Below are positions 25,533 through 27,508 of a DNA stretch of 44,897 nt, one piece after another; positions within the stretch are counted from its first letter, which is position 1; the number at the start of each line of letters is the position of its first letter. Source of the stretch: an uncultured Alcaligenaceae bacterium (GTDB lineage Bacteria > Pseudomonadota > Gammaproteobacteria > Burkholderiales > Burkholderiaceae_B); the NCBI GenBank assembly GCA_937896225.1, contig CALBMZ010000202.1, positions 1 through 44,897 on the forward strand, written 5' to 3'. The notes under the pieces are model-generated. The model was not told where the DNA came from. It searched no databases and was given only the letters and a program-made list of their open reading frames with translations. The translations under genes and the position numbers were made by a program.

Positions 25533-27200
25533 TTACTGCGCAAGTTGTCGATTGATGGCGCTTAACACTGCTTTGAACGAAGCGGTAACAATATCGCGAT
25601 CAGTGGCGACACCAAAGCCTGAGGGGTGTTCACCCATTTTGACTTCTACATAGCAAGCTGCTCGCGTGTCGGTACCTGAACCGATGGCGTGCTCGTGATA
25701 ATCAACAATACGCAACGGCACGCCTAAGCTGTTTACAAAAGCTGAAATGGCGCCATCACCAAAGCCCTGCAAGGTTTTTTTCTCACCATTTACTTCAAAT
25801 TCAGCGTCAATCGAAAAGGTTTGGCCATCAGACCCGTTTGGGTTGCCTGTAATGCTATGTTTAATCAATTTCCAAGGGTGTGTTTGCGATAAATATTCTT
25901 TTTCAAAAATACTAAAAACCGCACCCCCATTTACTTCTTTACCGGTGTCGTCGGTGACGCGTTGAATTGCGCGACTAAACTCGATTTGTAAACGGCGTGG
26001 CAAAACCATGCCATGCTCTTGCTCAAGTAAGTACGATACCCCACCCTTACCAGATTGGCTGTTGACACGAATGACCGCATCATAATTACGACCAACATCG
26101 GCGGGGTCAATGGGTAAATAAGGTACTTCCCAAATGCCATCTGGCTTTTGAATGGCGAAGCCTTTTTTGATGGCATCTTGGTGTGAACCTGAAAAAGCCG
26201 TAAACACTAAATCGCCTGCGTAAGGGTGGCGGGGGTGAACTGGCAATTGATTGCAATATTCAACGCCACGAACCACTTCATCTATGTCAGAGAAATTTAA
26301 ACCAGGGTGAATGCCCTGCGTGTATAAATTTAAAGCAAGCGTCACCAAGTCGACGTTGCCGGTGCGCTCACCGTTTCCAAACAAGCACCCTTCAACTCTG
26401 TCAGCCCCAGCCATAATGGCTAATTCTGCTGCCGCGACAGCTGTACCGCGGTCGTTGTGGGGGTGAACACTCACCACGACACAATCGCGCTTGTTCAAAT
26501 GGGTATGCATGTATTCAATTTGATCCGCATACATATTGGGGGTAGTGGCCTCAATGGTGGCGGGCAAATTAAAAACAATTTTTTTGTCGGTTGTTGGCTG
26601 CCACGTTTCAGTTACTGCGTTACACACTGCGAGTGCAAAATCGGGCTCAGTGGTGCTGAACACTTCAGGTGAATATTGATAACGCCAATCGGTTTGTGGG
26701 TAGCGCTTGACGCTTTCTTTAACAAAACGTGTGCCGTCAGTGGCCACTTTAATGACTTGTTCGCGTGACATATTAAAAACAATTTTGCGGAAAGACGGCG
26801 CCGTCGCGTTGTAGACATGAATCATGGCACGCTTAGCGCCCGCTGCTGCATCAACAGTACGATCAATTAAATCAGCACGCGCCTGCGTGAGCGCAATAAT
26901 GGTTACGTCGTCAGGTATGCGGTTTTCATCGACCAGTTTGCGAACAAAATCAAAGTCAGTTTGCGACGCAGAGGGAAACCCCACTTCAATTTCTTTAAAG
27001 CCAATGCGTAACAAGAGGTTAAAAAAACGTAATTTACGCTCAACACTCATGGGTTCAATGAGTGACTGGTTGCCATCGCGCAAATCAGTACTCATCCAGA
27101 TAGGGGGGTGCGTAATACGTTTGCTGGGCCACGTGCGCGCGCTAAAGTCGTGCTCAAAAGGCTTGAATGGAATATATTTTTTAGCTGGGTTTGAAAGCAT
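25533..27200 (-). CDS. leuA: 2-isopropylmalate synthase
   Basis: [88 protein letters not shown]. Confidence 0.97.
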
Positions 27201-27293
27201 TTTCTAAAACCTCATATCGTGTATATCAGACAAAAAAATCAATTTTTTTATCATGCCGTGATATTTAAAAATTAGGTGGGTACAAAATAATAA

Positions 27294-27476
27294 GACTAAA
27301 CAGCAGTGGCAGAGGGTTGCCGGACGGCCACGTCAGCGCGAGGCCCAGCAACCGATCGTTAGGTTTAGTCGAAGCAGCGCAGAGGCGCTAACCGCTATTT
27401 TAGACGCGCCAACACAGCTACCCATGACATGGGTAGTGTTAAACGGTGCGAGATGAGGTAAGTTGCTCATAACCAT
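27294..27476 (-). promoter_or_regulatory. Putative leuA leader/attenuator: Leu-rich uORF (27476-27333) plus nested stem structure
   Basis: uORF MVMSNLPHLAPFNTTHVMGSCVGASKIAVSASALLRLNLTIGCWASR*. Outer stem 27363-27370/27294-27301 (GACTAAAC/GTTTAGTC), inner stem 27348-27353/27315-27320 (GGTTGC/GCAACC), then a T-rich TTATTATTTT downstream on the minus strand. Confidence 0.55.
27418..27436. repeat. Perfect inverted repeat CTACCCATG-A-CATGGGTAG
   Basis: 9-bp arms separated by 1 nt, read directly; lies in the leuA upstream region. Confidence 0.95.
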
Positions 27477-27508
27477 AGAAGACCATAAATTAAACCATTC
27501 TGCAAGTC

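Follow-up and report, generated by a model that had tools for sequence, protein, structure and literature searches.

A leucine-codon leader and a conserved pseudoknot upstream of leuA in Burkholderiales: a probable proteobacterial version of the actinobacterial LEU element

How expression of leuA might be coupled to leucine supply is the question raised by the region upstream of this gene in an uncultured Alcaligenaceae bacterium. The window analysed here, by which is meant the whole stretch of 44,897 nt, covers forward strand positions 1-44,897 of contig CALBMZ010000202.1 (assembly GCA_937896225.1). A sequence-only reading had proposed a leucine attenuator on the minus strand, in which a short open reading frame rich in leucine codons would govern the folding of an outer and a nested stem ahead of leuA. 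The underlying letters are as described. The open reading frame (27476-27333) runs for 47 codons up to its stop, and GCG CTG CTT CGA CTA AAC CTA is among them; the two sides of the outer stem are perfectly complementary, with TTATTATTTT following the second; and GGTTGC (27353-27348) and GCAACC (27320-27315), the nested stem, are complementary and flank the TGA. For comparison approximately 110 leuA upstream regions were assembled, of which 79 distinct ones were aligned, and leader, terminator and codon counts were made in 86 relatives. Among the named genomes searched, an Alcaligenaceae MAG is the closest relative by LeuA, with 95% identity. The features discussed below are collected in Table 1.

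Table 1. Features of the leuA leader region, in positions of the window
Feature	Position	Strand	Remarks
Predicted -35 box (TTGCAG), leuA leader promoter	27500..27505	-	In almost all relatives TTGC.. keeps this distance to the leader ATG
Predicted -10 (TCTTCT)	27477..27482	-	Promoter-region alignment; spacing 17 nt to the -35 and 6 nt to the leader ATG
Leader ORF, probably leaderless, 45 codons + TGA; MSNLPHLAPFNTTHVMGSCVGASKIAVSASALLRLNLTIGCWASR	27333..27470	-	ATG-started open frame conserved
Leu codon run CTG CTT CGA CTA AAC CTA	27360..27377	-	Invariant codon: final CTA (27362-27360), 6 nt ahead of P1
Outer stem of the sequence-only reading, 5' side GACTAAAC	27363..27370	-	Not conserved
P1 5' arm GGTTGCTGGGC	27343..27353	-	11 pairs with 27325-27315; covariation
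Leader stop TGA	27333..27335	-	6 codons after the start of P1
P2 5' arm GTGGC, within the P1 loop	27327..27331	-	Pairs with 27310-27306; covaries in divergent leuA leaders
P1 3' arm GTCCGGCAACC	27315..27325	-	Pairs with the P1 5' arm
P2 3' arm GCCAC, closes the H-type pseudoknot	27306..27310	-	Pairs with 27331-27327
Outer stem of the sequence-only reading, 3' side GTTTAGTC	27294..27301	-	Not conserved
AGGTTTTAG at the leuA ribosome-binding site	27204..27212	-	Might pair weakly with CTAAACCT of the Leu run
leuA, 2-isopropylmalate synthase (555 aa)	25533..27200	-	Start at 27200

Alignment of the promoter regions places TTGACT or TCGACT at the -10 position in most relatives, and TATAGT in L096. 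The leader ATG follows the -10 element by approximately 6-7 nt, and the predicted promoter therefore sets the leader AUG at about +1. A Shine-Dalgarno-like sequence was seen ahead of the ATG in only 2 of the 82 leaders in which this was counted. Together with the position of the AUG this suggests that the leader is translated without an untranslated region in front of it (leaderless translation). By the position of the promoter and the alignment of starts in relatives, the window leader probably begins at the second ATG (27470). A leuA transcription start downstream of 27294, which had been named as an observation that would speak against a leader, is not indicated by this prediction, the predicted promoter lying upstream of the leader.

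The frame that runs through the Leu codons is open over a median of 52 codons in the relatives. The codon lying 6 nt before the conserved stem P1 is CTA in all 86 relatives, and at codons -8 to -3 before P1 CTA makes up 263 of 367 Leu codons (72%), compared with 31 of 3286 (0.9%) in the LeuA genes. The leader stop is TAG four codons past the start of P1 in 83 of the 86 relatives, the window being among the three exceptions (Table 1). Outside the family its position shifts, with TGA just before P1 in L125 (..PPLAL stop) and the stop lying past the knot in L126. The stop thus moves between lineages, which indicates that what is kept is the Leu codon at its distance from the knot and not the end of the peptide, and this points to the codons and the RNA, rather than an arrest peptide, as the conserved entity. 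An arrest peptide was rejected on these grounds and because the residues after the Leu codons vary. In several leaders from outside the Alcaligenaceae (L126, L128, L132, L135, L176 and L182) an extra, earlier Leu-rich short ORF, such as ..LGLRLLRVARI stop or ..LGLLLRFARI stop, is found before the pseudoknot leader or alone; where both occur they are possibly tandem leucine leaders.

The nested stem of the sequence-only reading proved to be conserved in all 79 distinct aligned sequences and at the same time to be incomplete, being the outer half of an 11-bp helix, P1. The common motif of the 79-sequence alignment can be written as CTA CTA CTA CCG ATC GGTTGCCGGGC CTAGCGTCCC GTGGC A GTTCGGCAGCC n4-9 GCCAC, in which GGTTGCCGGGC and GTTCGGCAGCC form P1 and GTGGC and GCCAC form a second helix, P2, that crosses P1 and so gives an H-type pseudoknot. 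In the 79 distinct sequences 99.7% of P1 cells are paired and double changes exceed those in all of 500 shuffles. Over the 79-sequence alignment 99.8% of cells pair, compared with 99.0% when shuffled, and a shift of the partner by 1-3 columns lowers the figure to 25-50%; 17 cells are double-changed compared with 0.4 in shuffles. In a wider set of 43 sequences 99.0% of cells are paired and double changes occur in 8 of 16 pairs (33 cells), the maximum among 1000 shuffles being 6 pairs and 15 cells. P2 is found as GTGGC/GCCAC, GCGGC/GCCGC, GCGAC/GTCGC and CTGGC/GCCAG (GCTGGC/GCCAGC), with the divergent members altered on both sides; the arms in these divergent sequences were placed by eye. Independent support for P2 came from a partner-permutation test that took the whole loop and the whole downstream stretches, in which P2 partners from the same sequence outperformed permuted ones (P 0.0002), with several individual sequences not significant alone and L120 being without P2. 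The 96-nt region of the window has a folding z of -3.1. Primary conservation is also strong and extends to an unpaired CnnGnG after P1, which is kept even where no stop codon is present there.

The covariation comparison that the sequence-only reading had suggested therefore came out in its favour, in that the Leu run is kept in relatives and the inner stem covaries. The idea of a leucine leader is upheld in so far as a leader that looks translated and whose Leu codons are selected lies beside a conserved stem and is linked to leuA; what had been missed is the second helix, GTGGC/GCCAC. A 4-nt loop leaves little room to span the 11-bp P1 with both helices formed at once, and P1 and P2 may for that reason partly alternate. 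Four Bordetella sequences (L077, L079, L092 and L095) have a longer loop, of 31-34 nt, between P1 and P2 and still retain GCCAC; the extra stretch in L092 (AGACG..CGTCT) and that in L095 can fold into a hairpin.

All covariance-model matches in approximately 880 genome scans, in which some genomes were drawn twice, lie directly upstream of leuA. A first model built on P1 and sequence gave matches in 22 of 299 Burkholderiales genomes, each directly upstream of a LeuA homologue, and a second model brought in one further Burkholderiales genome and four from other families within the same class, again all upstream of leuA. Named matches include Cupriavidus (82.6 bits) and a more degenerate copy in Ralstonia (48 bits). 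Searches with Rfam 15 returned no match at gathering score in the window or in thirteen relatives, and with relaxed thresholds nine further loci and the local region yielded a single sub-threshold and biologically irrelevant match (E 0.86); no Rfam 15 family matched at or near gathering score. That the element is real, conserved and specific to leuA we regard as very likely.

The proposal that the outer stem acts as a terminator/antiterminator switch was not borne out by the comparison. Classical attenuation, with the outer stem followed by TTATTATTTT serving as an intrinsic terminator and perhaps specific to the lineage of the window, can draw on a perfect 8-bp stem with a T-rich tail that is present in the predicted minimum-energy fold of the local region. 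Another Burkholderiales family (f49; L158, L161 and L165) does carry SLALLL-type leuA leaders followed by a GC-rich hairpin and a T run, that is classical attenuators, which offer a natural contrast within the same order to the terminator-less pseudoknot. However, the stem reaches 8 bp in the window alone, the longest Watson-Crick match being 5 bp in the nearest relative (L002) and 3-7 bp in others; approximately 1.2% of shuffles produce such a stem, and it does not appear when the whole leader is folded. A simple terminator scan of the window found none on the minus strand, and no intrinsic terminator with a U run was found before leuA in any of the 86 relatives. A mutually exclusive antiterminator was likewise rejected, as the conserved helices P1 and P2 cross as a pseudoknot and share no bases (in the window and in alignment A1) and so do not compete. 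Classical attenuation by the outer stem is accordingly considered highly improbable. Hardly more credible is a knot that binds a protein or small molecule with the leader playing a secondary part, a protein ligand being what Seliverstov et al. (2005) preferred for the actinobacterial LEU element while leaving the mechanism open. The strong primary conservation, including the unpaired CnnGnG, would suit such a ligand, but it would leave unexplained why a rare CUA is held at one fixed codon position, and a fixed rare codon near the knot points to decoding of the leader and not to a protein ligand.

Control at the level of leuA translation deserves more weight, although we think it rather unlikely as the general explanation. 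According to this proposal the Leu run pairs with the leuA ribosome-binding site, the knot holds both, and stalling of a ribosome within the Leu run sets the site free. A base stem of this type, between Leu run and leuA ribosome-binding site, is described for Actinobacteria in the same account (PMC1262725). The pairing is very strong in Achromobacter and Bordetella (L068, -27.3 kcal/mol, z -4.9; also L095, L072 and L079). Where a codon other than Leu precedes the last CTA, 11 of the 16 cases have NAC or CGC there (AAC, GAC, CAC, TAC, CGC), a change found in Achromobacter and Bordetella; this gives ACCU or GCCU to match AGGU while the amino acid varies. Ribosome-binding sites from the same locus pair slightly better than swapped ones (P 0.008). 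Against this, the mean pairing z over all 86 is about 0, and in the window the pairing of AGGTTTTAG with CTAAACCT (8 bp with one bulge) is no better than in shuffles (z -0.4). Blocking the Leu run changed the mean modelled accessibility of the site only from 0.23 to 0.24 in constrained folding that ignored pseudoknots, and the distance from P1 down to the site is roughly 75-210 nt. General sequestration of the site by the Leu run was therefore rejected, being strong only in Achromobacter and Bordetella, and so was pairing of the knot core with the site, which was no better than permuted. Between the knot and the ribosome-binding site, L024, L068, L092 and L095 of the same two genera carry an inverted repeat, GAATCC .. 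GGGATTC, that might bring the Leu run near the start site.

The explanation we prefer, and hold to be likely as a whole with the direction of sensing included, is that ribosome stalling against the pseudoknot senses leucyl-tRNA. The comparison supports the leader, the codon choice, the fixed spacing, P1, P2 and the linkage to leuA; from these we infer the direction of sensing and the output. Transcription would begin at or next to the leader AUG, and ribosomes would load on the leaderless mRNA and trail RNA polymerase. When charged tRNA-Leu for the rare CUA is short, a ribosome would wait at the CUA 6 nt before P1. Given the known dimensions of the ribosome, a stem that begins 6 nt past the A-site codon lies approximately at the mRNA entry, so that a ribosome holding the last CUA in its A site would abut P1 and the pseudoknot would stay folded. 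When leucine is plentiful, the ribosome would instead reach the stop inside or just past the 5' arm of P1, where it would cover the 5' arms of both P1 and P2 and the knot would be opened. Since leucine starvation must switch leuA on, the folded knot corresponds to the on state in this model and the opened knot to the off state. As there is no intrinsic terminator, the likeliest output is Rho-dependent termination downstream, the alternative being an effect on leuA translation; in Achromobacter and Bordetella the Leu run may instead bring about the off step by pairing with the leuA ribosome-binding site. The richness in C over G expected of Rho sites is only moderate after the knot (median 79th percentile within the locus); in the window this stretch is AT-rich, and the leader ORF is also C-rich.

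A leucine leader upstream of leuA is known from the enterobacterial leuL attenuator (Leucine operon leader in Rfam), which works by classical terminator/antiterminator attenuation. The element described here, referred to below as the beta element, shares with leuL a Leu leader with CUA codons upstream of leuA and differs in having a conserved pseudoknot in place of the terminator/antiterminator pair and no Rfam match. In the Rho-dependent uORF of Salmonella speF (PMC6386406), alternative mRNA conformations are likewise set by an amino acid signal, while signal, fold and gene are different and a role for Rho in the beta element is a proposal. The leuA leaders of L162, L163, L167, L169, L170, L173 and L174 end in ..LRLTRP stop, and that of L140 (Sphingomonas) in LRLIRP; in these the stop codon is spanned by a long GC-rich hairpin of the kind GCCCTTAGGCG/CGCCTAAGGGC, a T run is lacking and P2 is not evident, and they are a further type of leuA leader.

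The closest likeness is to the LEU element, which Seliverstov et al. (2005) named upstream of actinobacterial leuA (PMC1262725) and which consists of a Leu-run leader and a pseudoknot and includes an alternative hairpin that shares the base stem. According to the summary given there, mutations in the Streptomyces leader did not fit classical attenuation. The leuA leader of S. lividans (LeuL1, MRFGLLLLSCRGEGL) is leaderless and without an intrinsic terminator (PMC8079986). The LEU element has thus posed a puzzle since 2005, having a pseudoknot and a Leu leader, no terminator, and mutations that do not fit attenuation. A proteobacterial layout in which a rare codon is held 6 nt ahead of the knot provides a much larger comparative data set for this puzzle and opens tests in tractable hosts, for example Cupriavidus; the leuA leaders of Bordetella, Achromobacter, Cupriavidus and their relatives also make up a prospective Rfam family. 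In the literature searched, in which coverage of subscription journals was incomplete, LEU-type elements have been published for Actinobacteria only and no description of a proteobacterial one was found, and its occurrence in Proteobacteria appears on that basis to be new.

Like the LEU element, the beta element is specific to leuA and combines a Leu-run leader with a pseudoknot at the leader end and no intrinsic terminator, and LeuL1 of S. lividans, itself leaderless, may be set beside beta leaders ending ..LLLPIGCRA. Unlike the actinobacterial element, it has a nearly fixed CUA, a 6-nt spacing and a leuA start far downstream; its leaders are of approximately 40-45 codons compared with about 15, and outside Achromobacter and Bordetella there is no clear base stem with the leuA ribosome-binding site. 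In the Tsukamurella leader (VQWRALLLGCRGGV) an 11-bp P1 begins 5 nt past the last Leu codon, and P2 (CGGCT/AGCCG) follows after a 4-nt third loop with the arms in the same order as in the beta element. In Nonomuraea (L138) the leader and P1 are present, and P2 was not confirmed by the pattern used. Rhizobiales leuA leaders (..LLLLGLIGDRRVR, ..LLLLGLTRGCRVR) have an 11-bp P1 and, as P2, AAGGAGC/GCTCCTT or GAGGAGCG/CGCTCCTC. The covariance models score the actinobacterial (L137 and L138) and alphaproteobacterial elements no higher than noise, and their assignment rests on the checked helices together with the shared layout and LLL..GCR. With the architecture present in Betaproteobacteria, Rhizobiales and Tsukamurella, the layout is common to three groups. 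The beta element is, in our judgement, quite probably a leucine-sensing leader of the LEU kind in a proteobacterial version. More tentatively, LEU-type leaders may well form one RNA class common to Actinobacteria, Rhizobiales and Burkholderiales. The leucine sensor of such a class would be the ribosome itself, loaded on a leaderless mRNA and waiting at a rare Leu codon that lies 5-6 nt ahead of an 11-bp pseudoknot stem, and attenuation would proceed without an intrinsic terminator.
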